Source of the DNA: Ferrigenium straubiae
GTDB taxonomy: Bacteria; Pseudomonadota; Gammaproteobacteria; Burkholderiales; Gallionellaceae
Reading direction: 5' to 3'
NCBI GenBank assembly: GCA_019449655.1
Contig: JAHQXD010000001.1
Span: forward strand, 585,562-649,561
Length of the DNA stretch: 64,000 nt
Position 1 is the stretch's first letter. Every line of letters starts with the position of its first letter. This document shows, in pieces, positions 32,185 to 47,843 of this stretch. Below the pieces are notes generated by a model. It ran no database searches, was not told where the DNA came from, and saw nothing but the letters and a program-made list of their open reading frames with translations. Made by a program: the position numbers and the translations under genes.

Positions 32185-32592
32185 CTATTGCCCCGCCATC
32201 GTCATGAACGACAGCTTGCTCACCCCGGCGTGTTGCGCGATCGCCATGACCTGCGCCACGCGCCCGTAATTGACAGCCTCGTCGGCGTGGACATGCAATT
32301 CGAAATCGTCCTTACCCGCCGCCGCCTCGGCAAGCTGCTCGGCCAGTTTCTTGTCGTCCAGCGCAATGCTCTCGAGCGTGATCTTGCCTTCCGCATCAAT
32401 GGTGACCACCTGCTGCTTGGAGTCCATGCGCGTATCCACCGCGGCCGTCTTGGGCAGCTTCACTTCCAGCGACTGCGACAGCAGCGGCGCGGTAACAATG
32501 AACACCACCAGCAACACCAGCATCACGTCCACCAGCGGCGTGACGTTGATCTCGCTCATCATTTCCTGATCGGACTGAGTATGGAAGGCCAT
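32185..32592 (-). CDS. exbD: biopolymer transport protein ExbD/TolR
   Basis: A 135-residue single-pass membrane protein. The transmembrane helix (about 18-38; VMLVLLVVFIVTAPLL) contains the conserved Asp of PLVDVMLVLLV that carries protons with ExbB, and the C-terminal periplasmic domain is normal. It energises TonB. It is the last gene of a six-gene minus-strand operon that starts with a TonB-dependent receptor, and abuts exbB with one base between stop and start. Confidence 0.93.
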   Translation of the reverse strand: MAFHTQSDQEMMSEINVTPLVDVMLVLLVVFIVTAPLLSQSLEVKLPKTAAVDTRMDSKQQVVTIDAEGKITLESIALDDKKLAEQLAEAAAGKDDFELHVHADEAVNYGRVAQVMAIAQHAGVSKLSFMTMAGQ

Positions 32593-32593
32593 G

Positions 32594-33250
32594 TCACACC
32601 TTGTAGTCGTATTTGCGCGCCAGCCTCGCGAAGTCGTCCGCGAAATTCTCGAAATCCGTGAGGTTCAGCCGCAGGCGGCGCAGGAAATAGTTGTAGGCCA
32701 GCACCGCGGGCAACGCGGCCGCGATGCCGAAGGCCGTCGCGATCAGCGCCTCGCCGATCGGCCCCGCCACCACGTCCAGGCTAGCCGATCCGGTTTTGCC
32801 GATTTCCTGCAACGCATGCATGATGCCCCACACCGTGCCGAACAGCCCGATGAAGGGCGAGGTGGATCCGATGCCGGCCAGTTCGGCCAAACCGCTCTCC
32901 CCCTTGCGCTGCAGGTTGCGGATCTGCTGGCGCAGGGCGTTTTCCATTAGTTCCTGCGGGGCACCCGCATGCTTGAGATCGGTCTTGCCGCTGGCCATTT
33001 CCCTCAAGGCGGTGAAAGCTGAACGCGCAAGGCTGGCAAGCTGCCCTTCATGCTGTTCGCTCACCCGCTCGGCGCTCTTCCAGTCGGGCGAGTCCCAGAA
33101 TTGCTGCGCAAAAGCGCTGTCCTGTTTGTTGTTGCGGCTGCGCTGCAGCAATTTGTACCCCACGATAGACCAGGTGGTCACCGAACAGAGCAGCAGCACG
33201 AGAAGCGTGGCGCCGACAACAATCGAATCACTGCTGAATAACTGCATCAT
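32594..33250 (-). CDS. exbB: biopolymer transport protein ExbB/TolQ
   Basis: A 218-residue MotA/TolQ/ExbB proton-channel protein. Three transmembrane helices are seen, with the conserved blocks GLFGTVWGIMHA and ALIATAFGIAAALPAVLAYN. It forms the proton-driven motor with ExbD. The ATG at 33250 overlaps the tonB stop as TGATG. The sequence LLQRSRNN lies after the first helix, as in TolQ-like members, but linkage to tonB and receptors argues for the Exb role. Confidence 0.94.
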   Translation of the reverse strand: MMQLFSSDSIVVGATLLVLLLCSVTTWSIVGYKLLQRSRNNKQDSAFAQQFWDSPDWKSAERVSEQHEGQLASLARSAFTALREMASGKTDLKHAGAPQELMENALRQQIRNLQRKGESGLAELAGIGSTSPFIGLFGTVWGIMHALQEIGKTGSASLDVVAGPIGEALIATAFGIAAALPAVLAYNYFLRRLRLNLTDFENFADDFARLARKYDYKV

Positions 33251-33927
33251 CAATCCTCTTTCAAAATAAACGGAATCGGAACCAGAAACCACTTGGTAAT
33301 CACCTGCCCGCCCTGGCGCGCCGGAGCAAATTTCCAGCCGCGCACCGCCTGCATCGCAGCCTTGTCCAGCACGTCATGCCCGCTGCTCTGGTGCAGCCTG
33401 ACTTCGCCGGGCAGGCCGCTTGCCAGCACCTCGACATTCAACACCACCTTGCCCTGCCAGCCCATGCGCCGCGCCACCATCGGATAGGCGGGAACCGGGT
33501 TTTTCAGGTACGCCGCCTGGTAGTCCGGTTCGCGATCCGGCAGGCCGGGCGGCGTGGCCACTGGCTGCGGGGGCGCGCTGCTGACTTCGGTCGGCACCGG
33601 CGTCTGCTCAGGCACGATGGGCGTCGTAACCTCCGGCGAGGGCTGAGCACGCTTTTCCACCGGCCTGGGTTTCTCGGCCGGCTTGGGCTCGGGTTTGGGT
33701 TGCGGCTTCGGCTCCGCTGCAACGGGTTGCGGCGGGCTGGGCATGGCCGCAAAGCTGACCGACATTTCCTGATGCCTCGACGTGGGAAGGCTGGGGGCAG
33801 CCATCAGAAACCACAGCACCAGGACATGCGCGAGCACCACCAATGCCACGATCAGCGAGCGGTCGCGCAATTGCAAATCTGCCGGATTCATCATGGTCAT
33901 CAGGGGTGGGTAGGCCAGCGAGCTCAT
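33250..33927 (-). CDS. tonB: energy transducer TonB
   Basis: A 225-residue TonB. It has an N-terminal anchor (about 25-42; VALVVLAHVLVLWFLM), a Pro/Lys/Glu-rich periplasmic spacer (about 65-125; KPQPKPEPKPAEKP) and a C-terminal TonB domain with NPVPAYPMVARRMGWQGKV and SSGHDVLDKAAM. It links ExbBD to outer-membrane receptors. It is encoded in the same operon as a receptor, so it is probably dedicated to this uptake system. In-frame Met11-13 are alternative starts. Confidence 0.95.
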   Translation of the reverse strand: MSSLAYPPLMTMMNPADLQLRDRSLIVALVVLAHVLVLWFLMAAPSLPTSRHQEMSVSFAAMPSPPQPVAAEPKPQPKPEPKPAEKPRPVEKRAQPSPEVTTPIVPEQTPVPTEVSSAPPQPVATPPGLPDREPDYQAAYLKNPVPAYPMVARRMGWQGKVVLNVEVLASGLPGEVRLHQSSGHDVLDKAAMQAVRGWKFAPARQGGQVITKWFLVPIPFILKED

Positions 33928-33931
33928 GGCG

Positions 33932-34423
33932 TCATCTCACAGCATATTGTTCTTTGACCCATTGCTCCACTTCCCTGTATTCGAGCTTGCCGCTGATGCC
34001 TGCTGCTTCCTTTCCAGGGCTGAAGAAATAGGTGCGCGGCAATTCACCCTGCCACTTCCTGTCCACCTCGAAACGCAGGCGCTCGGTATAGTCGTCGGCA
34101 AATACCCAGGCCTCCGCCTTCTTCAGAGAAAACTTTGCGAGTGTGGCGGCAATCTCTTTTTCTTCTTCCGGCGTATCGGTGGAGACCAGCACCAGATCGA
34201 GCTTTGGATATTTTTTCACCAGCTTCTTGAGCATGGCCAGTTCGACCATGCAGTAATTGCAGGTCAGCGACCAGAAGTTGACGATGAAGGGCTTGCCCTG
34301 CTGCGCGGCAACAATCTGCTGGTAACTGCCGCGGACGAACGGCTTGATTTCCTGCGCGGCCTGCGCCGGAGCGGAAGAGAATAAAGCGGAGCACAGCGCT
34401 ACCAGAAAGCCAAGCCGCCTCAC
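33932..34423 (-). CDS. exported thioredoxin-fold (TlpA/ResA-like) protein
   Basis: A 163-residue protein from a GTG that overlaps the preceding stop as GTGA. It has a signal peptide (LGFLVALCSALFSSAPAQAA), then a thioredoxin fold with active site SLTCNYCMVE and KLDLVLVSTDTPEEE. It is a periplasmic thiol-disulfide oxidoreductase. Its place between a Cys-rich BNR protein and tonB suggests that it keeps cysteines of a neighbour reduced, or works with the CcdA-like protein at 38091-38750. Partner and direction of electron flow are inferred. Confidence 0.87.
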   Translation of the reverse strand: MRRLGFLVALCSALFSSAPAQAAQEIKPFVRGSYQQIVAAQQGKPFIVNFWSLTCNYCMVELAMLKKLVKKYPKLDLVLVSTDTPEEEKEIAATLAKFSLKKAEAWVFADDYTERLRFEVDRKWQGELPRTYFFSPGKEAAGISGKLEYREVEQWVKEQYAVR

Positions 34424-35667
34424 TTGTGCCCGCCGCCTATTTCGATCAGGCGGTAGCCTTCGTTCCTGGTGTTCCAGGACAAATAAGCCCTGCCGCTCTC
34501 GCCGATCAGCATCGGCCAGTCCGATACCTCGGAGGTGCCCGCCAGTTTTTCCGGTGCGGACCACGACTTCCCTCCATCCTCTGAATGCATCCCGAGGATG
34601 GCGGTGTTCTCGCCGTCGAATTCCTTCCACGCGAGATAGACGCGGCCACCGAGGCTCAATACGTAAGGGTGCGCCGGCTGCGCCTCGGGATTGCCGAAGT
34701 GCAACGGAGCAGAAAAAGTCTTGCCCCGGTCGTCCGAGTGCGCATAGAACAGGCCTTGGTACCCCGGCGCATTGCTGAACCAGGTGGCGTGATAAATGCC
34801 GTCCGCAGCGATGGAGAGCGATGGCCCGTGATGCGGGCACGCAGCGATGTTCCAGTTTTCGTGGCTGACTCGCACGGGAGCCATCTTACCGTCCAGCTTG
34901 ACCAGCGCATGGTCGCGGATGTTGGTGTCGTAGATGTGGCGCCATGCGACCACGGGATAATCGTCGGTGTCCACGACCATGGCCGTGCGGCAGCATTCGC
35001 AGACGTGATCGGCGATCTTGACGTTGCGCCGGAAGCTCGCCCCGCCGCCGTCCGACATCGCATAGTAGATGGCCGAGCCGTTGTATTTCTCCCCTCTTTT
35101 CTCCGCAGCACCCTGGTCGCGCTTGTCGAGCCAGGCGATGTAAACATGTCCCTTGCCATTCACCGCCATGGAATCGAAGCGATGGCTGATGATGTCGCGG
35201 TTATCGTTGACGGTGATCGGCGCGGAAAAGCTTTTCCCGCCATCGGTCGAGCGGCTGAAACGGATATCGCCGGTCATGGGCTTCGCCAATCCCTGCGTGT
35301 AGGAGATGTAAATCACCCCTTTGCGCACGATGATCTTGGGACGATTCTCGCCGTCGCCGAGGATGCTCTCGGGCTCGGCATTGACCTTGACCGGGACGCT
35401 CTGGGTGGCGCCATGGTCGTCGGAATAACTGACGTACACATGCTGCCCGCGGATCGCGGCCAGCCACAGGCGCCCCTTCTCGTCGAAAGCCCCGGTAACG
35501 GCGAGCGACGGTTTGGCGAGCGCCTCTTTCCAACGTTTTTCCATGTCGACAGGCGCAGCCGCCGGGGCCGCCACGCCGGGCTTGGCATGGCTGGCGTGCT
35601 CGGCAGCCGATGCCGGACAGGCGGCCAGCGCAGCGGCAAAGAGAAGTGCAATGGTTAACTTGTTCAT
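34420..35667 (-). CDS. exported BNR/sialidase-like beta-propeller with CxCC motif
   Basis: A 415-residue exported protein with a signal peptide (MNKLTIALLFAAALAACPASA). At least four Asp-box repeats (SDDHGAT, STDGGKS, SDDRGKT, SEDGGKS) mark a six-bladed sialidase-type propeller. The usual sialidase catalytic Arg triad was not recognised, so a sialidase name would be misleading. Unusual motifs are CECCRTA near residue 228 and NIAACPHHGPS near 282, a cysteine/histidine set that could bind metal or a cofactor. It lies directly after a TonB receptor and before a thioredoxin, which supports a periplasmic or surface binding role in that system. Confidence 0.8.
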   Translation of the reverse strand: MNKLTIALLFAAALAACPASAAEHASHAKPGVAAPAAAPVDMEKRWKEALAKPSLAVTGAFDEKGRLWLAAIRGQHVYVSYSDDHGATQSVPVKVNAEPESILGDGENRPKIIVRKGVIYISYTQGLAKPMTGDIRFSRSTDGGKSFSAPITVNDNRDIISHRFDSMAVNGKGHVYIAWLDKRDQGAAEKRGEKYNGSAIYYAMSDGGGASFRRNVKIADHVCECCRTAMVVDTDDYPVVAWRHIYDTNIRDHALVKLDGKMAPVRVSHENWNIAACPHHGPSLSIAADGIYHATWFSNAPGYQGLFYAHSDDRGKTFSAPLHFGNPEAQPAHPYVLSLGGRVYLAWKEFDGENTAILGMHSEDGGKSWSAPEKLAGTSEVSDWPMLIGESGRAYLSWNTRNEGYRLIEIGGGHK

Positions 35668-35724
35668 ACCCGCATCATATAACAGGATCGAAGGCGGCAA
35701 CCCGGAGGCCGCCGCCACGCTTAT

Positions 35725-37887
35725 TTACCACTTAATCTCGATGCCGGCATAAATGGTGCGCGGCAACCCCGGAGAGAGGGTGGGCGCGGCACCTGTGCCG
35801 GCCGCACTATCAGCGTAGCGCGTGTTGGACAGATTGATGATTCTGCCGAACAGCGAGAGGTCCTTCTCCACCTTGTAATCGGCACGCAGGTTGTACAAGT
35901 CATGCCCGTTGTATTTGCCGGTGTTGGCCGCGTCAAGCCAGTAGGCACCCGTCTTTACCCATTCGAACTGGGCAGTAGCGGCCGCCGTCGGACTCCATGT
36001 CAGTCGTGTGTTGGCAATCAGGTGCGGTGCCGATTCGATATCCTTACCATTGTTGTTTGCGCCGGTAAACTGGTTGGTAATCCAGCTGACATAGGTATGC
36101 TGCGCATACGAATAGGCAATATCGAGGCGCAATTGATCCGCCAGGGACTTGCCCAGACCCAGCTCGATGCCGCGATGTTCGGTGCTGCCGTTATTGCTGG
36201 AAATAGTAGTCTGGTTGAGGGCGTCGCGCTGATTGAGGATGTCGTCGCGTTTTTTGAGGACGTAGTAGATCAGGTCATAATTCCAGCCGATTGCATCGCC
36301 GCGCACGCCGACTTCATACTGATCCGCCTTGATGGGTTTGAGCTGCAGCGCGTCTGCTGCCTTGGTCCTGCCCAAGGCCAGCGTCGTATCGTGGCCGACC
36401 CTGAACAGGTTGCTTTCACCCGGTGCGCGGAACCCCTGATTATAGGAAGCATGAAGATGGGTCGAGGGCGTCAGAGCAAAGGCCAATCCGATCTTCGGGG
36501 TAGCCTTCGAGAATGACCGCGAACCGCTTGCGTTCTGCCAATAATGCTTGGCGCCGTTGGCTAGGTCGCCCGCTGCCAGATTGTTGGTCATCTTGTAGCT
36601 CATCGTGTCATAGCGTACCGCAGCCGTCACGCGCAGCTTCTCGACAGGGGAAAATTCGGTGTGGACATAGGGCGATGCGCTCTGGTAAATCACCTCGTAA
36701 TCGTAAATACGCGGCCCCACCGTGTAGCAATTAAACTGCTGGCTCCTCGTTGCCGTGCCGGCCACCGTGCAGCCCGGAGCGGCGAAGCTGATGGCATCCT
36801 CGGTGCGCTTTCCCGGGCTGTAGTCGTAATCGAAACCGGCGACGACGCGCGTGCGCATTGAACCGGGAAGATCCTTGCGCCATTTTGTCAGCAGCCCCAG
36901 CGAGGTGACCGTGGTCTTTTCAACCCGCGGATCGCCGGTCGCGGCGGTACTGAAGTTGTATGAGCCGTTGAGGTTCATGGAGTTGTAGCGGAAATAGGGA
37001 GTAATGGAAACCAGCGTGTTATCGCCGATATCCTTGTCCAGATTGGTCGAAAGCCGCAACGCATCGACCTTGCGGTAGGCGACGGAACGCGCGTTCACGG
37101 TCGGGGTGTTCTGGTATTCAAACGGAGTCAACGCCGAATTTGCCCCGGTCTGCTGATCGATCTTGCTGAACCCCAGGATGGTCTTGAACACCGATTCTCC
37201 ATCAGGCGCATAATCCCAGCGCAGGTTGCCGCTCAGCCGGTCATATGCGGTTTTCACGCGCCAGCCGTCGGTGTGCGAGACATTCACGTCGGCGCGCAGT
37301 GCGCCCATTTCCTTCTGCCCTGTATTGGCATTCCCCAGCAAACGATACCAGCCGTAGTTTCCCGCCTCGACGGAAAGCCCGGCACCGCTCTGCCGAGTGG
37401 GCTGGTTGCTCAGAATGTTTATGGTTCCGCCGATTGCATCGGAACCGTAAAGCGCCGAACCGATGCCCTTGACTACCTCTACGCCGCCAGCCGACGGGAT
37501 ATTGACCTCATACAGGGCGTTGTGGTTGAAAAAGCCGGTGGCGCGGATGGGAATGCCGTCCTCCAAATAGAGGTATACTGGGTCTGTCCCGATTTTCTGG
37601 CGGATACCGGTCGTGTGGCCTTCGCCATTCGTGACGTTGATGGCCACGCCCGGAATTTGCCCGAGGATCTGCTGAGGATGGGACGGACCGGTAAGCTTGA
37701 TGTCCTTCTGCTTGATGATGCCGATCGCAGCCGACGTTTCCGTCAAGGGCGTCGCTTCGCGGGTTCCGGTGACGGTCACCTCGCCGAGTTGCGAAGGTTC
37801 ATCCGCAGCAAACGCCGCATTGGCGATGCTCACGTAAATACAACTCAACGCGAATAGTTTTCCGCGGCCGATTTTCTGCCTTTTCAT
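35725..37887 (-). CDS. TonB-dependent outer-membrane receptor 1
   Basis: A 720-residue receptor. It has a signal peptide (ends NAAFAADEPS), a TonB box-like segment (LGEVTVTGTRE), a plug domain (about 45-165; PGVAINVTN, GSALYGSDAIGGTINIL) and a 22-strand-type barrel ending IYAGIEIKW with the terminal aromatic. The substrate cannot be told from sequence; cobalamin, copper and siderophore receptors share this layout. GGGAGAGGG precedes the ATG. It heads an operon with the BNR protein, thioredoxin, TonB, ExbB and ExbD. Its upstream region carries near-palindromes shared with receptor 2. Confidence 0.93.
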   Translation of the reverse strand: MKRQKIGRGKLFALSCIYVSIANAAFAADEPSQLGEVTVTGTREATPLTETSAAIGIIKQKDIKLTGPSHPQQILGQIPGVAINVTNGEGHTTGIRQKIGTDPVYLYLEDGIPIRATGFFNHNALYEVNIPSAGGVEVVKGIGSALYGSDAIGGTINILSNQPTRQSGAGLSVEAGNYGWYRLLGNANTGQKEMGALRADVNVSHTDGWRVKTAYDRLSGNLRWDYAPDGESVFKTILGFSKIDQQTGANSALTPFEYQNTPTVNARSVAYRKVDALRLSTNLDKDIGDNTLVSITPYFRYNSMNLNGSYNFSTAATGDPRVEKTTVTSLGLLTKWRKDLPGSMRTRVVAGFDYDYSPGKRTEDAISFAAPGCTVAGTATRSQQFNCYTVGPRIYDYEVIYQSASPYVHTEFSPVEKLRVTAAVRYDTMSYKMTNNLAAGDLANGAKHYWQNASGSRSFSKATPKIGLAFALTPSTHLHASYNQGFRAPGESNLFRVGHDTTLALGRTKAADALQLKPIKADQYEVGVRGDAIGWNYDLIYYVLKKRDDILNQRDALNQTTISSNNGSTEHRGIELGLGKSLADQLRLDIAYSYAQHTYVSWITNQFTGANNNGKDIESAPHLIANTRLTWSPTAAATAQFEWVKTGAYWLDAANTGKYNGHDLYNLRADYKVEKDLSLFGRIINLSNTRYADSAAGTGAAPTLSPGLPRTIYAGIEIKW

Positions 37888-37976
37888 GCTTACCCTCTCC
37901 CAAGTTGCCTAGATAATAATTTTTATGGACTTCAAACAGCCATGGGAATACTACAGACAAAAAGCCCGCTTGGGGA

Positions 37977-38060
37977 TGCGACAAAATGCCGCACCCTCTG
38001 GTGCGGCATTTTGCGGTGGAGGCTAACCTTCAGGTTATGCCGTAGCCACAAAATGCCGCA
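37977..38060. promoter_or_regulatory. cluster of TGYGRCA-N3-TGYCGCA elements upstream of receptor 1
   Basis: Three related sites lie 90-175 bases before the receptor start: TGCGACA-AAA-TGCCGCA (37977-37993), TGCGGCA-TTT-TGCGGTG (38002-38018) and AGCCACA-AAA-TGCCGCA (38044-38060). Similar sites occur at 43155-43186 upstream of receptor 2. The 7-3-7 near-palindrome suggests a dimeric repressor or activator. The first two also form the hairpin listed at 37982-38013, so the two roles are not exclusive. Confidence 0.5.
37982..38013 (-). terminator. 14-bp perfect inverted repeat downstream of the CcdA-like gene
   Basis: Left arm 37982-37995 and right arm 38000-38013 pair perfectly around a 4-base loop, flanked by A and T runs of four. 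It lies after the stop at 38091 and can terminate that operon on the minus strand, although it also contains operator-like sequence. Confidence 0.55.
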
Positions 38061-38090: not shown

Positions 38091-38750
38091 TCAGAGCACC
38101 AGCAGCAGTCTCCGCAACCCGAGCAGGATCAGCACCGCCGCCGCGCCCCAGCGGATCCAGCGCGTGATCCATTCGCGGTTGTCGCGCAGGTTCTTGCCGA
38201 GCAGGCTGATCAGCGGCAGCAGGATCAGGAGCGGGGTCAGCGCCGCACCCAGGCCGAACATCATGCCGTTGGTCATGCCCATCCTCACGCTCCCCGCCGC
38301 GGCGCACACCGCAAGCAGCGAGGCCAGCGGCGCGCAGGGGGTGAGGCTCAGCGAGAAGCCCATAAGCAGCGGCGGCGTGGTACCCGCACGGCGCACCGTG
38401 CCGCACGGGGAGTGCGGCTTTTCGGCGCGCAGCAGCCAGATGCCTGCCGCGATGGAAGCGAGCCCGATCACCAGGTTGCCGGTTCCGCCGCGCATCGCTT
38501 CGGACAGCCACACCCCAGCCCCGCCGGCGATCGCGCCGAGCATGGTGTAGGCGACGATGCGCCCCGCCACGAACATGGCCGTGTCATACAGCGCCTGGGT
38601 TTGCGAACCGCCGCGCCCCAGCACCCAGGTGCCCATGAACGGCAGGCAGGTAACGGTGCAGGCCGTCAGCCCGAGCGACAGGCCGAGCAGCCAGACGGCG
38701 AACAGCGTGGTCTCCTGCGGGATCAGCGCCGGGTTGAAGAAATCATCCAT
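38091..38750 (-). CDS. CcdA/DsbD-like (TauE/SafE-type) membrane protein
   Basis: A 219-residue protein with about six transmembrane helices. Cysteines in the first helix (LTACTVTCLPFMGTW) and a second pair-like site before a later helix (SLSLTPCAPL) match the transmembrane thiol-electron carriers CcdA and DsbD-beta, although automatic pipelines would call it a TauE/SafE exporter. It overlaps the polyferredoxin gene by 8 bases and probably passes electrons to periplasmic thiols. A third gene cluster member, the thioredoxin at 33932, is a candidate acceptor. Confidence 0.78.
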   Translation of the reverse strand: MDDFFNPALIPQETTLFAVWLLGLSLGLTACTVTCLPFMGTWVLGRGGSQTQALYDTAMFVAGRIVAYTMLGAIAGGAGVWLSEAMRGGTGNLVIGLASIAAGIWLLRAEKPHSPCGTVRRAGTTPPLLMGFSLSLTPCAPLASLLAVCAAAGSVRMGMTNGMMFGLGAALTPLLILLPLISLLGKNLRDNREWITRWIRWGAAAVLILLGLRRLLLVL

Positions 38751-39795
38751 GCGGGTTCTCCTTCGACTGCGCCAGCCAGATCACCTTGTTCTTCGGCAAG
38801 CCTTCCGGGGTCTCCAGCTTCACGCGCTGCTTGTAAGCCTCGCGTGATGACTTGAACAGGGGGACGCCGAAGAACTTGATCTGGATCACGTCGTCGTCCG
38901 GGCAGTATTCGACGCAGCGGCCGCACATGGTGCAGTCCTCGTGGAATGCTTTTTTGCCGTGCTCCCGGCCGATCTCGTGGATGTCCATCGGGCAGGCCTT
39001 TTCGCAGACGCTGCATTTGTCGCATTTGTCATTCTGCTTCTTCACCAGTTGCATCGGCGAGAGCCTCTGGAACAGCGCATTCCACGACAGCAGCGGACAG
39101 ATGCGGCAGAACGGCTGGCGCACCGCGAGCGCGGCGATGATGACGAAACCGAACAACGCATTGCCCAGCGCACCGAGGAAGAAGTTGACGCCCGTCGAAG
39201 TGCGCAGCGCGATCTGCTCGGTGTCGGCGGTCAGCAGCGTGGTGGCGATGCGCGAGGGGCATACCTGGCAATAGGGATCGCCCAGTTCATTGGGTACGGT
39301 ACCCATGCCGGCCAGCAGCGGCAGGCCGAGCACCAGTACCAGCAGCATCAGCCACTTCACCGGGCGCACCCGGCCGACATTGCCCGGCGAGAAGCGGTGC
39401 AGCGGCCTGCCCAGCCTCCTGCCGATGCGGTAGACGATCTCCTGCACCGTGCCCATCGGGCAGACCCAGCCGCAGAACGCCTTGTTGAGGAAAAAGAAGA
39501 AGGCAAAGAAGGTGGCCACCGAGACCAGCGTCGGGATGAATACCGTATAGGTTAGCTCCTGTGCCTTGACCAGCGCCTCGCCGATGCGGTGATGCAACTG
39601 GTGCTGGTTGACGATCAGGATGCATTGGTCGCCGGTCTGTTTGTCGAATGCGCAGGCCAGCGAGGGCAGCGCCTGCGAAACGCGGTCGCTGACATAGCTG
39701 CCCAGCAGCACGCCGCCGTAAACGGTGACGAACAGCATGAGGAGCTGGATGGTGAAGCGGAAACGCGTCAGCGTCGGAAAAATGGATTTCAACAT
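38743..39795 (-). CDS. NapH/NosR-like membrane polyferredoxin
   Basis: A 350-residue membrane protein with several transmembrane helices, the CxxxCP motifs typical of this family (FCGWVCPMG, FCRICPLLSW) and two [4Fe-4S] ferredoxin motifs (CDKCSVCEKACP, CTMCGRCVEYCP). NapH, NosR, CcoG and FtrD proteins of this type move electrons from the quinone or cytoplasmic side to periplasmic partners. The ATG at 39795 follows AAGGA at good spacing and lies just past the DUF4198 stop. Neighbouring receptors and a CcdA-like protein suggest that it powers a periplasmic reduction linked to uptake. Confidence 0.85.
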   Translation of the reverse strand: MLKSIFPTLTRFRFTIQLLMLFVTVYGGVLLGSYVSDRVSQALPSLACAFDKQTGDQCILIVNQHQLHHRIGEALVKAQELTYTVFIPTLVSVATFFAFFFFLNKAFCGWVCPMGTVQEIVYRIGRRLGRPLHRFSPGNVGRVRPVKWLMLLVLVLGLPLLAGMGTVPNELGDPYCQVCPSRIATTLLTADTEQIALRTSTGVNFFLGALGNALFGFVIIAALAVRQPFCRICPLLSWNALFQRLSPMQLVKKQNDKCDKCSVCEKACPMDIHEIGREHGKKAFHEDCTMCGRCVEYCPDDDVIQIKFFGVPLFKSSREAYKQRVKLETPEGLPKNKVIWLAQSKENPHG

Positions 39796-39796: not shown

Positions 39797-40789
39797 TCAG
39801 GCATCCTTGTTGTTGGCGGTTTCAGTCGCTGCCGGTTTGGCGTCGGCCTTCTGCTTCGCATCCTTGCGCTGCCGCAGCAGCGGCACGGCACCAATCATGC
39901 CAAGCAAGGTGAACCCCAACCCCATCGCAAGATCGCGCTGGTAGAACGCATCCGTGCCGTAACCGGCGTTGAAGGCGGTCAGGTAGGTCTTGCCGCTCTC
40001 CGCGTGCTCAGTTGCCAGCACGAAATCCGAACCACGCCGCCCGTAACTGCCCGCAGTTTTTTGCGGGGCTTCCGCCTTGAAGTCATCCGGAACGCGAACC
40101 GTGATCATACCCTGCGCATCGCTGAGCAACTCGGCCCTGGTGCCATTCGCGGTTTCCAGATTCACCTTCTGGCTCGCCAGCGGCTTGCCGTTGAAGCGCA
40201 CCAGGAACTTCCAGTCCTCGTTGGCGCGATAGCGTGAATGCTCGCGCGGGAAAGGCCGCGGAATGATCTCCAGCTCATGCTTCGGCTGCATGAACATCGC
40301 CGTCGGAGTCTTGGCGCCGGAGCCGGTGAAGAAATGCACGGTGGAAGCCACCTTCACCTGTCCGCCCTGCTCCTCGCGTGCGGCCAGCCAGTGGAAGCCG
40401 CCGGCCGCAGGTTTGTCCAGCCTCGCGCCCGCCATCTCCAGCGGAAGCCGGCGGTGCCCCTTTTCATCCTTGGTGTTGTTGGAGTAGGCATCGATGCTGC
40501 TTGCAACGATGTTCTGCGGAATGATCGTAACCATCCTGCGGTCGCGGCCTTCGCCGCCCATCCTGGCTTTCAAGGTGGGGAACGACGTCCACGATGCGGG
40601 CCTGCCCGCCCCTCCCGCCATGCCGCCCCTGCCCGCCGCCACTCCGGCAGGCTCCCCATGTCCGGCGTGTTCCCCGGCCGCCATGCCCTGCTGCGTTGCC
40701 GCCGGCGCGCTTGCCGCGGCAAGCGCCCATGACGGGAGTGCCAGCGATGCGGCCAGGAGCATCGCATTCAGTAAAGTTTTTTTCTGCAT
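39797..40789 (-). CDS. exported DUF4198-like protein with C-terminal anchor
   Basis: A 330-residue protein with a signal peptide (LLAASLALPSWALAA), a Gly/His-rich low-complexity region, and a beta-rich domain (WKFLVRFNGKPLASQKVNLETANGT, AQGMITVRVPDDF) similar to DUF4198 proteins found with nickel/cobalt or other metal transporters. A C-terminal membrane helix (about 280-300; AMGLGFTLLGMIGAVPLL) has a Lys-rich tail. GGGAGA precedes the start, 11 bases after the receptor 2 stop. A metal-linked role is inferred from family and context. The family assignment is by motif style only. Confidence 0.7.
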   Translation of the reverse strand: MQKKTLLNAMLLAASLALPSWALAAASAPAATQQGMAAGEHAGHGEPAGVAAGRGGMAGGAGRPASWTSFPTLKARMGGEGRDRRMVTIIPQNIVASSIDAYSNNTKDEKGHRRLPLEMAGARLDKPAAGGFHWLAAREEQGGQVKVASTVHFFTGSGAKTPTAMFMQPKHELEIIPRPFPREHSRYRANEDWKFLVRFNGKPLASQKVNLETANGTRAELLSDAQGMITVRVPDDFKAEAPQKTAGSYGRRGSDFVLATEHAESGKTYLTAFNAGYGTDAFYQRDLAMGLGFTLLGMIGAVPLLRQRKDAKQKADAKPAATETANNKDA

Positions 40790-40800: not shown

Positions 40801-43074
40801 TTAGAAGCTCAACGTCAGGCCGGCGGTATAGCTCCTCGGTTTGCCGACGATGATAGACAAATCTTCGGTGTCATAGGTGCCACTGTAGGCGCCAGTGCGG
40901 TAATTCGCAGAATCGCCTGTGCCTCGTGCGGCCGACCAGTAACGCTTGTCGAGTAAATTGTTCACGCGCGCGAACAGCGACCACTTCGCGCCCAGCAGCC
41001 CCTTTTCCCGGATATCGTAGTTGGCGGCCAAGTTAAAAAGGGTGCGTCCTGCCCATTTCTCCTGGTTGATCTCGTCGGCCCATGACCAGGATTTCGCATC
41101 CATTTCCAGCGCCAGGCGGAAAGGCTCGGCCGGCTGCCAGCCGAAGCTCATGTTCAACTGATGATGCGGCACGCGCGGCACATCCTTGCCGGTGTTGTTG
41201 TAGTACCTGATATTTGGATTCGGTGCATATGGACTGCCAAGCGTCAGGCCGAAATTGTCGTACCTCGTGAATTCCGCCTTGATATAGCTGTAGGCCGTAT
41301 CCAGGGTGAAGATGCGCTTGCGGTCTGTTTTCAGCGACAGTTCGAAGCCACGATTCCTGACGCCACCGATGTTGTCGTACATCTGCTGCGCTGCCGCTGT
41401 GTTGGTGCTGTATTGACCATTAACATCGAGAATGAAATTCTTGCGCTCGATCTGGAAAATAGCCGTTTCAATATCTGCCGCTACGCCGAAAAATGTACTC
41501 TTTGCCCGCGCCCCAAGTTCGAGGTTCAGAGACTCTTCCGGCTTCAGGTTTTCGTTGTTGAGCGTCTTGCCGCCAGCAGGCGAGAGGGTTCCGTTAAAGA
41601 GTTGGTCCGCGGTTGGCGCACGAAAACCGGTCGAAATGTTGCCAAAGAGATTTGTATTCTCGTTGACGGCATAATTCGCGCCACCACGCCAGGAGGAAAC
41701 ACCAAAGCCCTTGCTACGACTGAATGGAACTGTAATTTCATTCGTCCTCCCTGAGGTGAAATCCAATTTGATATCGTCGTAACGCCCGTTCATGGTCAAC
41801 GTCCATTGCGACGTAGGCTGGAACTTGAATTCGCCGTAGAGTGCATTCACTGCCTCCTTGGTTTTATTATCAGTAAACGTAGTCCCGGCTGTAACCAAAA
41901 GCGTAGGGTTGGCTCCAGTTTTCGGGCATTGTCCTGTTTTTGAGCAGTAAGTCACCTTTGCGCTGGTAAAATTGACATATTCGTTCTGGCGCATATCCAA
42001 GCCAGCCAGCCAGCCAACATTATCCGCAGACGACCGCCATTCTCCTTTCACACCGCGCTGGGTTTGACGGTAGTCGTTGTTTAATGTGTAGAGCTCTTGA
42101 TACCCAGGAGTGTTAGGGGAAAGCTGTATCGCCGGATTGGTGCCAGTCACGTTCTGCGGGGCAGACCAGAAAATCGTATGATCACGGTATTCATATACCG
42201 TCGCCAGAACGTTGCTGCGCTCGGAAAGGTCATTCGAGTAGGTTGCATATATTTTTTGCAGGTTAACATCGTACTTGCGCGTATAGTCACGACCAATGGT
42301 GCCTTGTGGATCCAGCGCGGCCTGCGTTGCGCCCTTCACGTTGCCATGTTTGTCCTTAATACGGTCGGATTTTTCAAAACCCAAAGTCAAATCTGAAGCG
42401 TCGCTGAGGAAAATACGCGCATTACCATCGACGGCGTCTGTTTTGTAGTTCGATTGCCAGTAGTAATCATCACCTGCCCGATGTGATGCCTGTATGTGAC
42501 CACTGCCCCAATCACCCGCAAAGCCGGCGCGCGCCAGCTGACGAGTGTAATTCCATGAACCGGCGTCGGCAGCAACGGTGAACCCCTTGTATTTCGCGCC
42601 ACGCTTGGTGGTGATGATGACAGCCCCGGCGAGCCCATCGTCGCCAAACAGATACGATGCACCACCCTTGATGACCTTGATCGATTGAATATTATCGAGA
42701 TCGATGTTGACCTTACCGGTGCGCTCGAATACCGGCACACCGTCAATCACGATGGCCACACCGGGCTTTTCACCCATGTAGCGCTGATTCTCGACGCCGC
42801 GCAGCTTGATCTTGATTTCGTCACCGGACGAAAGATCAGCAGTAACGCCTGGAATCGTGCGGAGAAGCTCTATCATATTTTCGGGGCGTTTTTCATCTAC
42901 CACCTGCGCACTGATGTCATGAACACTTGCTGGTTCGCTGCGCTTGCTGGTGAAACGATCATCGATCGTCGTGGAAGTCACGCTGACCTCCGGCAACACG
43001 CCTGGCTCGGCATACACCGCCTGGCTGACTGCCAGCGAGATCACGCTTAATGCAAATACCTGTTTGCCTTTCAT
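40801..43074 (-). CDS. TonB-dependent outer-membrane receptor 2
   Basis: A 757-residue receptor with signal peptide (ends AVYAEPG), TonB-box region (LPEVSVTSTTID), plug (about 45-165; IPGVTADLSSGD, IKVIKGGASYLFGDDGLAGAVIITTKRG) and barrel ending TAGLTLSF. A barrel loop carries a cysteine pair (YCSKTGQCPKTG) that could form a disulfide. The substrate is unknown. AGGAGAGGG precedes the ATG. It leads an operon with DUF4198-like, polyferredoxin and CcdA-like genes, and it diverges from tolC-macA-macB. Confidence 0.93.
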   Translation of the reverse strand: MKGKQVFALSVISLAVSQAVYAEPGVLPEVSVTSTTIDDRFTSKRSEPASVHDISAQVVDEKRPENMIELLRTIPGVTADLSSGDEIKIKLRGVENQRYMGEKPGVAIVIDGVPVFERTGKVNIDLDNIQSIKVIKGGASYLFGDDGLAGAVIITTKRGAKYKGFTVAADAGSWNYTRQLARAGFAGDWGSGHIQASHRAGDDYYWQSNYKTDAVDGNARIFLSDASDLTLGFEKSDRIKDKHGNVKGATQAALDPQGTIGRDYTRKYDVNLQKIYATYSNDLSERSNVLATVYEYRDHTIFWSAPQNVTGTNPAIQLSPNTPGYQELYTLNNDYRQTQRGVKGEWRSSADNVGWLAGLDMRQNEYVNFTSAKVTYCSKTGQCPKTGANPTLLVTAGTTFTDNKTKEAVNALYGEFKFQPTSQWTLTMNGRYDDIKLDFTSGRTNEITVPFSRSKGFGVSSWRGGANYAVNENTNLFGNISTGFRAPTADQLFNGTLSPAGGKTLNNENLKPEESLNLELGARAKSTFFGVAADIETAIFQIERKNFILDVNGQYSTNTAAAQQMYDNIGGVRNRGFELSLKTDRKRIFTLDTAYSYIKAEFTRYDNFGLTLGSPYAPNPNIRYYNNTGKDVPRVPHHQLNMSFGWQPAEPFRLALEMDAKSWSWADEINQEKWAGRTLFNLAANYDIREKGLLGAKWSLFARVNNLLDKRYWSAARGTGDSANYRTGAYSGTYDTEDLSIIVGKPRSYTAGLTLSF

Positions 43075-43131
43075 CCTGCCCTCTCCTCGAATCGATCGTT
43101 ATTGTGAAAAACTTGAAGCGGGCGAATTCTA

Positions 43132-43186
43132 AAGTTGAGTAATCAACTTGGGAATGTGACATATTGCCGCGCGTCAAAATGTCGCA
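43132..43186. promoter_or_regulatory. operator-like palindromes between receptor 2 and tolC
   Basis: AAGTTGA-GTAA-TCAACTT (43132-43149) is a perfect 7-bp-arm palindrome. TGTGACA-TAT-TGCCGCG (43155-43171) and CGCGTCA-AAA-TGTCGCA (43170-43186) are two adjacent near-palindromes, centres 15 bases apart, of the class seen at 37977-38060. The position between divergent genes suggests control of both receptor 2 and the TolC-MacAB exporter. Confidence 0.5.
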
Positions 43187-43292
43187 CCCCTGTATCCACG
43201 TGGCTTATGGCGAATACAATTTCTTACAAAAAATCCGGTAGAGGCAATGCTGAGCCGCTATACTGGAAAAAAGAAAATCCAATTTCCCGTTC

Positions 43293-44705
43293 ATGCGCCC
43301 TCATCCGATACCTTACGCTTGCGCCCTGCTCTGTCTGTGGAGCAATCTGGCGCTGGCCGAAACAGCTCTCGATCCGTTCGACACGGAAGCGATGTTGCCG
43401 CTCAAGCCCGCGTTGCGCCCGGGCGGCGCAGCCGGCGATCCCTGCGCGGAGGCCACGCCGGCCGGCGCGCTCGGCTTGCTGGAGGTGGTCAATCTCGCGC
43501 TGTGCAACAACCCGCAGACCCGCGAGGTATGGGCGAGCGCGCGTGCGCAGGCGGCGCAGGTCGGCGTGAGCAAGGGGAGCTATCTGCCCGGCCTCAGCCT
43601 GAGCGCTTCCGGCAATCGCATTTCGCCCGGCACGAGCCAGCGTAGCTATGGCCTGACCCTTTCCTATTTGTTGTATGACTTCGGTGCGCGCGCCGCCAGT
43701 CTGGAAAATGCGCGCCAGTTGCTCTCCGCCGCCAATGCCACGCAGGACAGCACGGTACAGACCGTCTTTCTGCAGGCGGTGCAATCCTTCTACCAGGTGC
43801 AGGCAACACAGGCCGCGCTGAATGCCGCTCTCGAATCGGAACGCGCATCGAAAGAAAGCTTCACCGCCGCCGAGGCGCGCTATACCACCGGCGTCGCCAC
43901 GCCTGCCGACAAGCTGCAGGCGCAGACCGCCTACTCGCAGTCCACCCTGAACCGCATCACCGCGGACGGCGGCCTGAAAAACGCGAGGGGCAGCTTGGCG
44001 AACATCATCGGGCTGGATGCCCACAGGAATATCGCATTGGAGACGGCGAATATTGCGACCACCCCTGCAAGCTTCGACCGCGACGTGAATATGCTGATCG
44101 AGGAGGCCAGGCTGCGCCGCCCCGATCTGCAGGCCGCCGAAGCACAGGTAAAAGCCGCCGAGGCCAGCGCCGATGCGGCACGCTCGGCAGGCAAACCGTC
44201 GATCTCGCTGACCGCATCAAAAAACCAAACAGACAGTTCGGGCATCACTTCCCGGGGCTCGACGGTCGGCCTGAGCGCGAGCGTGCCGTTATTCACAGGA
44301 TTTGCGCCGACCTACCGGATACGCGCCGCCGAAGCCCAAGTGGAAACCCAGAAGGCACGCATGGAGCGCGTGCGTCTGCAGGTGGCCATGGATGTATGGA
44401 CGGCCTACCAGAACCTCGTCACCGCTACGCAATCCCTGCGCACCACTGCCGATCTGCTGAACAGCGCCGAGCAATCGGAACGCGTCGCGCTCGGCCGCTA
44501 CAAGGCCGGCGTGGGCAACATCCTGGATGTGCTGAATGCGCAAAGCGCCCTGGCCAGCGCGCGCCAGCAGCGCATACAGTCCACGTATAACTGGAACATC
44601 AACCGCGCCGCGCTCGCCCAAGCCATGGGCAGCCTGGATGCAGGCCTGCTGCAGGAACTGTCCGATGGCAGCCGGCAGGCCGGCGCGAATCCCCAACAGA
44701 AATAA
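43293..44705 (+). CDS. TolC-family outer-membrane efflux protein
   Basis: A 470-residue protein with a signal peptide (ALLCLWSNLALA) and the two repeated OEP domains of TolC (LLEVVNLALCNNPQTREV near 65 and VNMLIEEARLRRPDLQAAEAQ near 265) that form the trimeric barrel and tunnel. The segment LYDFGARAASLENA is typical. It is the exit duct for the MacA/MacB-type pump encoded just downstream, with an 8-base gap. The ribosome-binding site is weak. Confidence 0.94.
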   Translation: MRPHPIPYACALLCLWSNLALAETALDPFDTEAMLPLKPALRPGGAAGDPCAEATPAGALGLLEVVNLALCNNPQTREVWASARAQAAQVGVSKGSYLPGLSLSASGNRISPGTSQRSYGLTLSYLLYDFGARAASLENARQLLSAANATQDSTVQTVFLQAVQSFYQVQATQAALNAALESERASKESFTAAEARYTTGVATPADKLQAQTAYSQSTLNRITADGGLKNARGSLANIIGLDAHRNIALETANIATTPASFDRDVNMLIEEARLRRPDLQAAEAQVKAAEASADAARSAGKPSISLTASKNQTDSSGITSRGSTVGLSASVPLFTGFAPTYRIRAAEAQVETQKARMERVRLQVAMDVWTAYQNLVTATQSLRTTADLLNSAEQSERVALGRYKAGVGNILDVLNAQSALASARQQRIQSTYNWNINRAALAQAMGSLDAGLLQELSDGSRQAGANPQQK

Positions 44706-44713
44706 AACCAGCC

Positions 44714-45913
44714 ATGAAAAAAATATTGCGTTCTCCCATCGCCCTGTTCTTCATTGCCATTGCCGTCGCCACCGCAGGTATCGCCACCTACCGGCAGGTA
44801 GCCCTGGTTGCGCCGGAACAGCAATACCGCCTGCAGACCGTGGAAAAAGGCGACATCACCCAGACCGTTTCCGCCAACGGCACAATCAATCCGGTAACGC
44901 TGGTCAATGTCGGCACACAAGTCTCCGGCACGGTGAAAAAGCTGTATGTGGACTTCAACAGCAAGGTGGAAAAAGGCCAGGTATTGCTGGAACTGGACGA
45001 CGCCCTGCTCGCCGCACAACAGAAGCAGAGCCAGGCCAACGTGCAGAGCGCCACCGCCTCGCTGGAACTGGCTACGGCCAACGAGGCGCGCATGCGCAGC
45101 CTCTTCGCGCAGGAATATGTTTCGCGGCAGGAACTGGACACTGCGGTGCAGACCAAAAAGGCTGCCGAGGCGCAACTGCATCTGACGCGCGCAGCGGTGG
45201 AAAAAGACAGCGCCAACCTCGCCTATTCGGTGATCCGCTCGCCGGTATCCGGCGTCGTGGTGGACCGTGCAGTGGATATCGGCCAGACCGTCGCAGCCAG
45301 CCTGCAGACCCCGACGTTGTTCAAGATCGCGCAGGATTTGTCCAAGATGCAGATTCACGCCAACTTCGCCGAGGCGGATGTCGGCAGCATCCGCGTCGGC
45401 CAGGCGGTGCGCTTCACCGTGGATGCCTTCGCGGGGCGCAACTTCCAGGGCGAGGTCATGCAGATACGCCTCAACCCGACCACGCAGCAGAATGTGGTTA
45501 CCTACGATGTGGTAGTCAATGTAGACAATCCCGAGCAGATCCTGCTGCCCGGCATGACCGCCTATGTCAGCATCGCGGTGGCCGAACGCAAGGATGCGTT
45601 GCTGGTACCCAATGCCGCGCTGCGCTTCAAGCCGGCCAACGGCAACACCCCAAAGCGCGGCAACGGCCACCCCGGCGGCTTACCGAAAGGTAATGCGGCG
45701 TCCAGGCAAGATGCTTTTACCGGCAAGGTGTACGTGCTGGAACAAGGTGAACTCGTTCCCGTCAATGTCTCGCTCGGCATCACCGATGGCCGCAATACCG
45801 AAATCACCGGCGGCGACCTCAAGGCCGGCGATCAGGTCGTGACCGGCGAAATACAGGCGGCGGGCAGCGCTCCGGCGGCCAGCGGCACGCCGATGCGCAT
45901 GAGAATGTTCTGA
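44714..45913 (+). CDS. macA: MacA-like periplasmic adaptor (membrane fusion protein)
   Basis: A 399-residue adaptor. It has an N-terminal membrane anchor (about 7-25), lipoyl/hairpin (about 60-200; GTVKKLYVDFNSKVEKGQVLLELDD, YSVIRSPVSGVVVDRAVDIGQTV), beta-barrel (ANFAEADVGSIRVGQ) and C-terminal domains. A Gly/Pro/Lys-rich insertion (about 310-330) interrupts the last part. It bridges the ABC pump and TolC. Export substrates of the family include macrolides, peptides and siderophore-like compounds; here it is unknown. Confidence 0.92.
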   Translation: MKKILRSPIALFFIAIAVATAGIATYRQVALVAPEQQYRLQTVEKGDITQTVSANGTINPVTLVNVGTQVSGTVKKLYVDFNSKVEKGQVLLELDDALLAAQQKQSQANVQSATASLELATANEARMRSLFAQEYVSRQELDTAVQTKKAAEAQLHLTRAAVEKDSANLAYSVIRSPVSGVVVDRAVDIGQTVAASLQTPTLFKIAQDLSKMQIHANFAEADVGSIRVGQAVRFTVDAFAGRNFQGEVMQIRLNPTTQQNVVTYDVVVNVDNPEQILLPGMTAYVSIAVAERKDALLVPNAALRFKPANGNTPKRGNGHPGGLPKGNAASRQDAFTGKVYVLEQGELVPVNVSLGITDGRNTEITGGDLKAGDQVVTGEIQAAGSAPAASGTPMRMRMF

Positions 45914-46620
45914 TGGCGGATTCCGTCATCCGTATCGAAAACCTGCACAAGTCCTACGAGACTTCTGCCGGTTTGTTCCCTGCGCTGAAAGACGTCAGCC
46001 TCGACATCTCTGCCGGCGAATTCGTCGCGATCATGGGCCCGTCCGGCTCGGGAAAATCCACTTTCATGAACATCCTCGGCTGCCTCGACAAGCCTACTGC
46101 CGGACGCTACACGCTGGATGGCCGCAGCGTTGCGGAACTGAGCAAGGATGAGCTGGCCCTGCTGCGCAATCGCACCATCGGTTTCGTGTTCCAGGGCTTC
46201 AACCTGCTGCCGCGCATGTCGCTGCTGGACAATGTCGCCTTGCCGCTGATCTATTGCGGGGTGGAGCGCGAAGAACGCCAGCGGCGCGCCCGCGACCTGC
46301 TCGCCAGGGTCGGGCTGGGAGACAAGGCAGACTCCATGCCCAACAAGATTTCCGGCGGCCAGCAGCAGCGTGTCGCAATCGCCCGCGCGCTGGTCAATCG
46401 CCCGCGCCTGCTGCTTGCCGACGAGCCGACCGGCAATCTCGACAGCCACACCAGCGAGGAAATCATGGCTTTATTCGAGGCGCTCAACCGCGAAGGCATC
46501 ACCATCGTGCTGGTCACCCACGAAGCGGATATCGCGCATCATGCAAAGCGCCAGGTGAGGTTCCATGATGGCCGCATCGTCAGCGACCAGCCGACGCCGC
46601 AACTGGAACACTCAGCATGA
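45913..46620 (+). CDS. MacB-type ABC transporter ATP-binding protein
   Basis: A 235-residue ATPase with Walker [11 protein letters not shown]-loop [12 protein letters not shown], signature [14 protein letters not shown], Walker [13 protein letters not shown] and the switch His (VTHEAD). This is the LolD/MacB subfamily. In classical MacB the ATPase is fused to the permease; here they are separate, as in many betaproteobacteria. It overlaps both neighbours by 1-4 bases. Confidence 0.96.
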
Positions 46621-47843
46621 GCATGGTGTTTACCATGCTCGGCGAAGCCTGGCGCGCGATGGGCGCCAACCGGCTGCGTACCATGCTGACCATGCTCGGC
46701 ATGGTGATCGGCGTCGGCGCGGTGGTACTGATGATGTCCATCGGGCAAGGCGCGCAATATGCCATCAAGCAGACCATCAGCGCGATGGGCAGCAACCTGT
46801 TCGTCCTGCTCTCCGGCAGCCGCTCGGTAGGCGGCGTGCGCACTGGCGGCGGCGGTAACTACACGCTGACGGTCGGCGATGCCGAGGCCATCGCCGAACT
46901 GCCCGGCGTGCAAACAGCGGCGCCGATCCACCCCGGCAACGCGCAGGTCGTGTACGGGCCGAACAACTGGAATACCTCCATCATCGGCACCACGCCCAAC
47001 TATCTTGAGGCGCGTGCCTGGCAAGTGACTGCGGGGGCGGCTTTCACCTCATCCGACGTGCGCTCCGCCACGCGCGTCGCGCTGATCGGCAAGACCGCCG
47101 CGCAGAACCTGTTCGGCGACGAGGACCCGGTCGGCAAGACCATCCGCATCCGCCAAAGCCCCTTCGTCATCCTCGGCACCCTGGCGGTCAAGGGCCAGGG
47201 CATGGACGGGCGCGATCAGGACGACAGCATCATCATCCCGCTCACCACCGCGCAGCGCCAGGTGTTCGGCACCCAGTTTCCGGGGTCGGTGCGCATGATG
47301 ATGGTGCAGACCACCACCCAGGAGTCCATGCCGGCGGTGGAAAAATCCATGACCGAGCTGTTGCGCCAGCGGCACCGCATCCGCGAGGGCATGGATGACG
47401 ACTTCTTTCTGCGCAACCTTACCGCCGCCGCCGATTCGGCCGCAGAAAGCACGCGCACCATGTCGCTGCTGCTCGGCGCGATCGCCTCGGTCTCGCTGCT
47501 GGTAGGCGGCATCGGCATCATGAACATCATGCTGGTTTCGGTGACCGAGCGCACCCGCGAGATCGGCATCCGCATGGCGATCGGCGCGCGTGAAAAGGAC
47601 ATCCTGCTGCAATTCCTGCTGGAGGCCATCATCATCTCGCTGGCCGGCTGCTTCATCGGCCTGCTGCTGGGAATCGGCGGCGCGCTGCTGGTCAACGCGC
47701 TGACCGGCACGATGGTCATCATCTCGGGCAGTTCGGCCGTCGTGGCTTTCGGCGTGGCCGCGACGGTAGGCATCTTCTTCGGCTTCTATCCGGCGAAAAA
47801 GGCCGCGCAGCTCGACCCGATCGAAGCCTTGCGCTACCAATAA
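46617..47843 (+). CDS. MacB-type ABC transporter permease
   Basis: A 408-residue permease with one N-terminal transmembrane helix (about 18-40), a large periplasmic MacB_PCD domain (about 45-280) and three C-terminal helices in an FtsX domain (SLLVGGIGIMNIMLVSVTERTREIGIRMAIGA). It is a mechanotransmission pump that pushes periplasmic substrates into TolC through MacA. The start overlaps the ATPase stop as ATGA. Confidence 0.95.
   Translation: MSMVFTMLGEAWRAMGANRLRTMLTMLGMVIGVGAVVLMMSIGQGAQYAIKQTISAMGSNLFVLLSGSRSVGGVRTGGGGNYTLTVGDAEAIAELPGVQTAAPIHPGNAQVVYGPNNWNTSIIGTTPNYLEARAWQVTAGAAFTSSDVRSATRVALIGKTAAQNLFGDEDPVGKTIRIRQSPFVILGTLAVKGQGMDGRDQDDSIIIPLTTAQRQVFGTQFPGSVRMMMVQTTTQESMPAVEKSMTELLRQRHRIREGMDDDFFLRNLTAAADSAAESTRTMSLLLGAIASVSLLVGGIGIMNIMLVSVTERTREIGIRMAIGAREKDILLQFLLEAIIISLAGCFIGLLLGIGGALLVNALTGTMVIISGSSAVVAFGVAATVGIFFGFYPAKKAAQLDPIEALRYQ

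Follow-up and report, generated by a model that had tools for sequence, protein, structure and literature searches.

Gene content and order of the island

The window analyzed in this study, i.e., the whole stretch of 64,000 nucleotides from Ferrigenium straubiae, belongs to a genome of 2.66 Mb in five contigs, and it contains an island of two operons on the minus strand, each of which starts with a TonB-dependent receptor (TBDR) followed by redox proteins of its own. Operon A (cassette A) is composed of tbdr2, DUF4198, NapH-like and DsbD_2 genes, and operon B (cassette B) is composed of tbdr1, BNR(CxCC), thioredoxin, tonB, exbB and exbD genes and reaches down to 32185. The original prediction had named these genes from the DNA alone, and the Pfam and NCBIfam profile searches found them where it had placed them. 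The intergenic distances were -43 to 11 nt within operons A and B and 203 nt from operon A to operon B, as computed with a NapH-like start at 39792; the start at 39795, which was the position matched in the protein search, is more likely. The genes and control sites of the two cassettes are as follows.

43155..43186, no strand assigned: two overlapping control-site copies, one with 1 mismatch and one with 2, in the region separating TBDR2 from tolC
40801..43074, minus strand: TBDR2, TonB-dependent receptor, first gene of operon A (PF00593 168.6 bits, PF07715 64.3 bits; not TIGR01778)
39797..40789, minus strand: DUF4198-like protein (PF10670 30.2 bits, below the cut-off of 34), conserved beside the NapH-like gene
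38743..39795, minus strand: NapH-like polyferredoxin (PF12801 (Fer4_5) and Fer4; napH_ 68.9 bits, cut-off 213)
38091..38750, minus strand: DsbD_2 / CcdA-like membrane electron carrier (PF13386 66.2 bits)
37977..37993, no strand assigned: 17-bp palindromic control site TGCGACAAAATGCCGCA, exact match, upstream of operon B
35725..37887, minus strand: TBDR1, TonB-dependent receptor, first gene of operon B (PF00593 151.2 bits)
34420..35718, minus strand: BNR/Asp-box protein with CxCC (CECC) and CP cysteines (PF02012 29.7 bits)
33932..34423, minus strand: TlpA-like thioredoxin, CNYC (AhpC-TSA/Thioredoxin on the longer frame 33932-34840; dsbE 25 bits, cut-off 123)
33250..33927, minus strand: TonB (PF03544 79.7 bits)
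32594..33292, minus strand: ExbB (PF01618 113.8 bits)
32185..32592, minus strand: ExbD (PF02472 100 bits)

The NapH-like protein has its nearest named relatives in Gallionella, Ferrigenium and Sideroxydans, and C46, C56, H63, H66 and H67 (HQxHH motif) together with the Fe-S cysteines were invariant among 17 aligned orthologues. The DUF4198-like protein exhibited, by sequence reading, a signal-like N terminus, a His/Met-containing N-terminal stretch and a hydrophobic C-terminal stretch. Cysteines C240, C242 and C243 (CxCC) and C294 (CP) of the BNR family were invariant in 18 aligned sequences, which include two plasmid homologues of 23-24% identity; the homologue in Methylomagnum adjoins CopC, and that in Sulfitobacter is located near copper oxidase, copper-binding and P-type ATPase genes. 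The genome contains two TonB_C matches, one of which is inside the island. The solved structures nearest to TBDR1 by profile were YncD/PqqU (130.7 bits, weak), the colicin I receptor and then CrtA (9rvq), and TBDR2 was nearest to heme and siderophore receptor models, every one of them below its cut-off. Family names for TBDR1 and TBDR2 were dropped, because both receptors are below the curated cut-offs of all listed models and the solved structures are only distant.

Recurrence of the cassettes and their flanks

Strong matches to the BNR protein were found in 29 of 150 relatives (31 counting weak matches) and strong matches to the NapH-like protein in 21 (26 counting weak matches). The joint occurrence of the two blocks, on which the original prediction depended, was above expectation among these relatives, where 12 carried both cassettes (Fisher p 3e-5, for related genomes and uncorrected for kinship) and nine of the 12 had A and B 4-11 kb apart. 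It was rare in a class-wide sample of 321 genomes, in which the NapH-like protein was present in 11, the BNR protein in 21 and both only in this genome. At least 474 relatives were confirmed, and the named loci described here are the first 64 (42-92% identity) of 79 kept, the 15 at 23-32% being left out. Of these 64 loci, 63 had a detected DUF4198 and 61 a detected DsbD_2; either gene was at most 700 nt from the NapH-like gene in 60 loci. The loci are spread over Beta-, Gamma- and Alphaproteobacteria, Magnetococcales, Mariprofundus and Campylobacterota. The gene order is beyond chance, because identical orders recur in relatives, and the proposal of two energized, conserved receptor modules with dedicated redox proteins is supported. 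Cassettes A and B are near each other, in differing arrangements, in four distant loci (L168, L169 from Denitromonas, L204 and L213). Judging from their distribution, A and B are independent modules that were joined more than once, since they are rare together class-wide, yet adjacent in relatives and in distant loci.

The receptors preceding cassette A varied, including TBDR2-like receptors (42-72%), other receptor groups and, in the Magnetococcales locus L206, a TBDR1-type receptor (44.5%) upstream of DUF4198-NapH. Receptors are thus swapped, and the redox parts are retained. A MetA-pathway phenol degradation family protein (PF13557) was observed at L145:5672-6850, near a TonB-like gene and cassette B.

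The edges of the site recur in the relatives as well, with macAB-tolC on one side and tonB-exbB-exbD plus a helicase on the other side, so that the syntenic block extends past the limits first proposed. The flanking genes are as follows.

43293..44705, plus strand: TolC-like outer membrane channel (PF02321 (OEP) 216 bits), probably outside the uptake system; also a flank in relatives
44714..45913, plus strand: MacA-like (HlyD-type) adaptor (TIGR01730 194 bits, cut-off 94.9)
45913..46620, plus strand: MacB ATPase part, a separate gene (PF00005 124.5 bits)
46617..47843, plus strand: MacB permease part (FtsX), a separate gene (PF12704 and PF02687)
30463..32106, plus strand: DEAD-box helicase (PF00270 174 bits), the other edge of the site, common to many relatives

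The tolC-macA-macB set, which had been proposed as the exporter of the module, is divergent from operons A and B and starts at 43293; it is present as described, except that MacB is encoded by an ATPase gene and a permease gene and not as one fused protein. The MacA-type adaptor, the MacB permease and TolC are all present, and the E. coli MacA/MacB equivalog cut-offs were not reached. The role as exporter found no support: macAB-tolC flanks the site (macB 79-83% identity) in L268 and L282, and it is probably a neighbor and not part of the uptake system, because it is retained in these two loci where no receptor cassette was detected. TBDR2 and tolC may still have a common control region, since the sites at 43155-43186 lie between them. 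Elsewhere in the window, an ABC-2 membrane protein and an ABC ATPase are encoded at 27272-29903, and the adjoining 589-aa frame had no Pfam match, its second half resembling a polysaccharide export protein by eye.

Between the recurring edges, the relatives carry either A or B alone, the two together, or a third cassette. This third cassette (L064, L090, L091, L092 and the Sulfurovum plasmid L098) is composed of a receptor, a NapH-like protein (about 30% identity), a dehydratase-like protein, an ATPase activator and a DsbD_2-like protein. The HGD-D type dehydratase-like protein scored 332 bits and the BadF/BcrA-type ATPase activator 198 bits in L064, the activator being uncalled in L090, and an additional Met/His-rich protein is encoded in L090-L092. 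Such an ATP-driven electron-activation pair next to TonB receptors is unusual. PepSY_TM-type proteins and extra receptors, resembling CrtA-type operons, are located at or near the same site in L060, L090 and L091, the protein of L060 being a confirmed one.

The palindromic site, the copper genes and the probable cargo

A 17-bp palindrome, TGYGRCA-N3-TGYCRCA, is located upstream of both operons. With at most one mismatch, it was present near the start of 52 of 108 distinct cassette receptors (random windows drawn from these loci gave an expectation of 2.7), and it was mostly 70-110 nt ahead of the picked receptor start. The set of 108 was obtained after removal of duplicate loci and L202; receptor starts were picked mechanically, so that some upstream windows are misplaced (e.g., L182, with a 1230 aa frame). 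Of the BNR-linked receptors, 26 of 34 had the palindrome, and of the DUF4198-linked ones 26 of 74. The search at up to two mismatches was negative for the three scanned Campylobacterota loci (L209, L217 and L218) and for those of Thiodiazotropha, Neptuniibacter and Marinobacterium.

The same palindrome precedes both A-only and B-only receptors, including those of Rhodocyclaceae and Thiobacillus, and this bears on the simplest explanation of the site, namely a neutral landing place beside the TonB genes into which unrelated cassettes were inserted, A and B having no common cargo. The variable cassette content of the relatives and the class-wide restriction of A plus B to this genome would be expected of such a place. 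The shared palindrome, the proximity of A and B in other arrangements in the four distant loci and the B-type receptor ahead of the A cassette in L206 all argue against it, and we regard it as very improbable.

Three exact copies of the 17-mer are present in the genome. The first is upstream of operon B; the second has a PCuAC copper chaperone gene (PF04314 105 bits) on one side and RegB-like plus RegA-like genes on the other; the third separates a cytochrome c gene from the gene for a copper nitrite reductase (TIGR02376 307.9, cut-off 296.3). The longest RegB frame covers the palindrome, and a later start was assumed. Double sites precede operon A, an OprC/NosA copper receptor gene (TIGR01778 710, cut-off 472; L319:4452-6629, at about 342-345 kb of contig C5) and a NirS-like gene with a receptor downstream. 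The double site of the OprC/NosA gene lies inside its longest frame, ahead of the likely start, and 38 of 41 bases, counted by eye, are identical to those of operon A. Genome-wide, there were 21 one-mismatch sites; about half of them may be chance matches, because the reversed control pattern gave 11. Contig C5 also holds both kinds of nitrite reductase genes, namely nirK (L317:6390-7427) and two cytochrome cd1 NirS-like genes (L318:4762-6423 and 7220-8860), and palindrome copies are upstream of nirK and of one of the two NirS-like genes.

The form of the palindrome is similar to that of the RegA/RegR box, whose consensus is the palindromic GCGRC-N5-GYCGC, and GCGGCATTTTGTCGC at 37977 fits the RegR box GNGRCRTTNNGNCGC. 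A RegA-like gene (E 1e-35) was present in all 15 named genomes with the palindrome at up to two mismatches and in 11 of 28 without it, a comparison confounded by kinship, and none of the 43 named genomes carried a RegA-like gene above the curated cut-off. RegBA-like genes are located beside cassette B in L142 and likewise, by sequence clustering, in L145, and a RegA-like gene is near the cassette in L076. RegR boxes have been described in Bradyrhizobium, where RegR controls nor, nos and copCAB (PMC4064962), RegA has been reported to bind copper (PMC9147068), and the RegA motif could not be derived in Acidithiobacillus (PMC5506826).

A small protein beside the cassettes in relatives was identified as the copper storage protein Csp1, since all four tested were above the TIGR04401 cut-off and the solved Csp1 structure 5fjd was matched with E 3e-17. 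Csp1 was above the cut-off in 43 of 150 relatives, and it was near cassettes or TonB genes in 26 of the 43. Nineteen of the 38 relatives with A or B encode Csp1, and 11 of these 19 have it no more than 10 kb from a cassette; in relatives with Csp1 and neither cassette it is within 7 kb of tonB/exbB/exbD in 15 of 24. In L268 and L282, Csp1 is located between macAB-tolC and tonB, and a one-mismatch palindrome is ahead of it. The association of Csp1 with the cassettes was not significant within the genus alone (p 0.22).

The original prediction had held that the cargo is perhaps a metal; a metal is indeed likely, and the site common to copper genes together with Csp1 at the same place in relatives makes copper the more likely one. 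We therefore consider it rather probable that the island serves copper acquisition under RegA-type control, with two receptor cassettes and reductive accessory proteins. The cassettes of TBDR1 and TBDR2 would be interchangeable and would rely on a common TonB-ExbB-ExbD motor and on control sites of a single type. Copper, probably as an organic Cu(II) complex, would enter via TBDR1 or TBDR2 with the energy of TonB-ExbBD. CcdA-like proteins carry electrons outward and thioredoxins keep cysteines reduced, and it is from these protein types that the direction of the electrons and the reduction of Cu(II) to Cu(I) are predicted. The NapH-like polyferredoxin and DsbD_2 of cassette A would thus send electrons outward to the DUF4198 protein, and the thioredoxin of cassette B would maintain the reduced CxCC/CP cysteines of the BNR protein. 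By either redox route, copper may be released or held as Cu(I) for chaperones, i.e., PCuAC and, in relatives, Csp1. Transcription would be set by the 17-bp palindrome, for which the likeliest binder is a RegA-type regulator, the promoter region of its own putative genes carrying an exact copy. A more specific claim, that this is an undescribed reductive copper import in which TonB receptors are hard-wired to inner-membrane electron export, Cu(II) is captured, Cu(I) is fixed in the periplasm and the whole is switched by RegA together with the denitrification cuproenzymes, is tentative and somewhat doubtful.

Several observations weigh against copper or against RegA-type control. The palindrome at up to one mismatch was missing from 48 of 74 cassette A receptors, and the copy at 37977 overlaps a 14-bp inverted repeat, which may be the terminator of operon A. 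A terminator scan did not flag this inverted repeat, which was found neither at four other sites checked in the genome nor at 43155, and was found in two of 52 relatives; the idea that the palindrome is a mere part of a terminator was dropped, the repeat being missing at the other sites checked and so rare in the relatives. Both the RegB-like protein (ActS/PrrB/RegB 249 bits, cut-off 350) and the RegA-like protein (ActR/PrrA/RegA 202 bits, cut-off 250) are below the curated cut-offs. Csp1 was not found in this genome. Outside Gallionellaceae, 7 of 44 cassette-A genomes encode a Csp1 above the cut-off, and L206 was the only locus with Csp1 detected in the retrieved flank. The palindrome was found with 7 of 47 Csp1 genes (2.7 expected), which is merely suggestive, and Csp1 promoters were dropped as further targets. 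NosL, near cassette A in L194 and L195 and with two members, was the sole copper family among the families listed (25 of 118) for the flank proteins of cassette A. That scan covered 107 proteins of the 224 selected (319 picked), mostly encoded by unrelated genes, and deriving the cargo from these flanks was abandoned. TIGR01778 matched neither TBDR1 nor TBDR2 at E 1e-3, nor any of 62 other picked frames at E 1e-60, among which L202 is of GGDEF/EAL type and no receptor.

Iron is the main rival to copper, because DUF4198 responds to iron limitation elsewhere and RegA controls some iron transport in Rhodobacter. The TBDRs would then import Fe(III) or its chelates, and the NapH-like/DsbD_2/DUF4198 chain and the thioredoxin/BNR pair would reduce it to Fe(II). 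Iron limitation has been reported to induce DUF4198, together with DUF2271 and PepSY proteins, in Alteromonas macleodii and in mutants of Caulobacter (PMC7190382, PMC11870441), and iron transport belongs to the RegA regulon of Rhodobacter (PMC5359404). The resemblance of TBDR2 to heme and siderophore receptor models, all below cut-off, is consistent with iron, as is a PepSY protein downstream of cassette A in the Methylomonas metagenome-assembled genome L210. Fur-type boxes with up to three mismatches were near 8 of 108 cassette receptors (3.5 expected), and one with three mismatches is at 37911 in the tbdr1 promoter (0.61 expected in the window). The excess is slight next to the 52 versus 2.7 of the palindrome, and Fur-box control was dropped. 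The named relatives are known iron oxidizers living on Fe(II), which also speaks against uptake of ferric iron. Copper is likelier than iron because the control site is common to nirK, the PCuAC/regBA-like genes and the OprC/NosA receptor gene, and because Csp1 is at the site in relatives; uptake of iron therefore appears unlikely.

Another ligand, such as a redox cofactor, heme, cobalt or nickel, would require the RegA-type site to reflect merely oxygen control. The double site ahead of a NirS-like gene is in agreement with this, since NirS uses heme d1 and not copper. The nearest profile of TBDR1 was YncD/PqqU, a pyrroloquinoline quinone transporter, but this match was weak. DUF4198 is known from nickel/cobalt transporters (PMC7190382). 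Such a ligand leaves unexplained why Csp1, PCuAC, OprC/NosA and NirK share the site or the neighborhood and why BNR relatives are found in copper clusters, and we consider it a distinctly unlikely cargo, more so than iron.

Copper acquisition across the Gram-negative outer membrane is poorly known (PMC12914433). The conserved control site groups two unrelated receptor cassettes with nirK, the PCuAC/regBA-like genes and the OprC/NosA receptor, and thereby delimits a testable copper (or redox) regulon in the iron-oxidizer relatives and in denitrifiers, with a bearing on the copper supply of the nitrite and nitrous oxide reductases of denitrifiers. Candidate functions are also provided for DUF4198, the CxCC BNR family and the NapH-like polyferredoxin. 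The cassette itself ranges from iron oxidizers to Campylobacterota.

Comparison with known systems

In P19/FtrABCD systems, the handling of metal in the periplasm is combined with a polyferredoxin and with thioredoxin-like and DsbD-like proteins, and the same protein types are present in the island. The island differs from them in its TonB receptors and in that P19 and FTR1 are missing from the genome: the FTR1 permease (PF03239; positive in 4 of 14 control genomes) and the P19-type periplasmic protein (PF10634; positive in 1 of 14) had no matches in the whole genome. Membership of this group was thereby ruled out, as the original prediction had argued. NapH is the closest curated model of the membrane polyferredoxin, with which it shares Fer4_5, whereas the napH_ score is far from its cut-off and the gene context is different. 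Fer4_5 is also shared by CcoG, a Cu(II) reductase.

The palindrome of the island is of like form to the site of the RegB/RegA (PrrBA, RegSR) regulon, and the difference is that the targets here are TonB receptor cassettes. TonB receptor cassettes of this kind were not met as RegA targets in the literature searched, nor was either cassette found described there as a copper system. OprC/NosA resembles the island in its TonB-dependent uptake of copper across the outer membrane and in the near identity of its promoter in this genome to that of tbdr2; copper represses NosA, which is expressed under anaerobic conditions (PMC8610252). TBDR1 and TBDR2 differ from OprC/NosA as non-members of the family that are accompanied by redox accessory genes.

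CrtA with its PepSY_TM partner is the nearest described copper system of this type. CrtA (BfrG) of Bordetella pertussis is a TonB receptor for chelated Cu(II), sometimes encoded with TonB-ExbBD and PCuAC genes, and its operons mostly carry PepSY_TM (over 75% of loci) and often CruR (PMC12914433). The main text of PMC12914433 makes no mention of DUF4198, ferredoxin, sialidase or BNR. The binding site of CrtA has conserved residues, among them an essential His. The alignment of the TBDR1 group showed invariant His residues, and CrtA, through structure 9rvq, was only a distant match. No PepSY match was found in the block with Pfam, and the partner gene that follows the receptor in CrtA-type operons was not encountered. 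The receptors of the island are accompanied by DUF4198-NapH-DsbD_2 or by BNR-thioredoxin, whereas those of the CrtA type are mostly accompanied by PepSY_TM.

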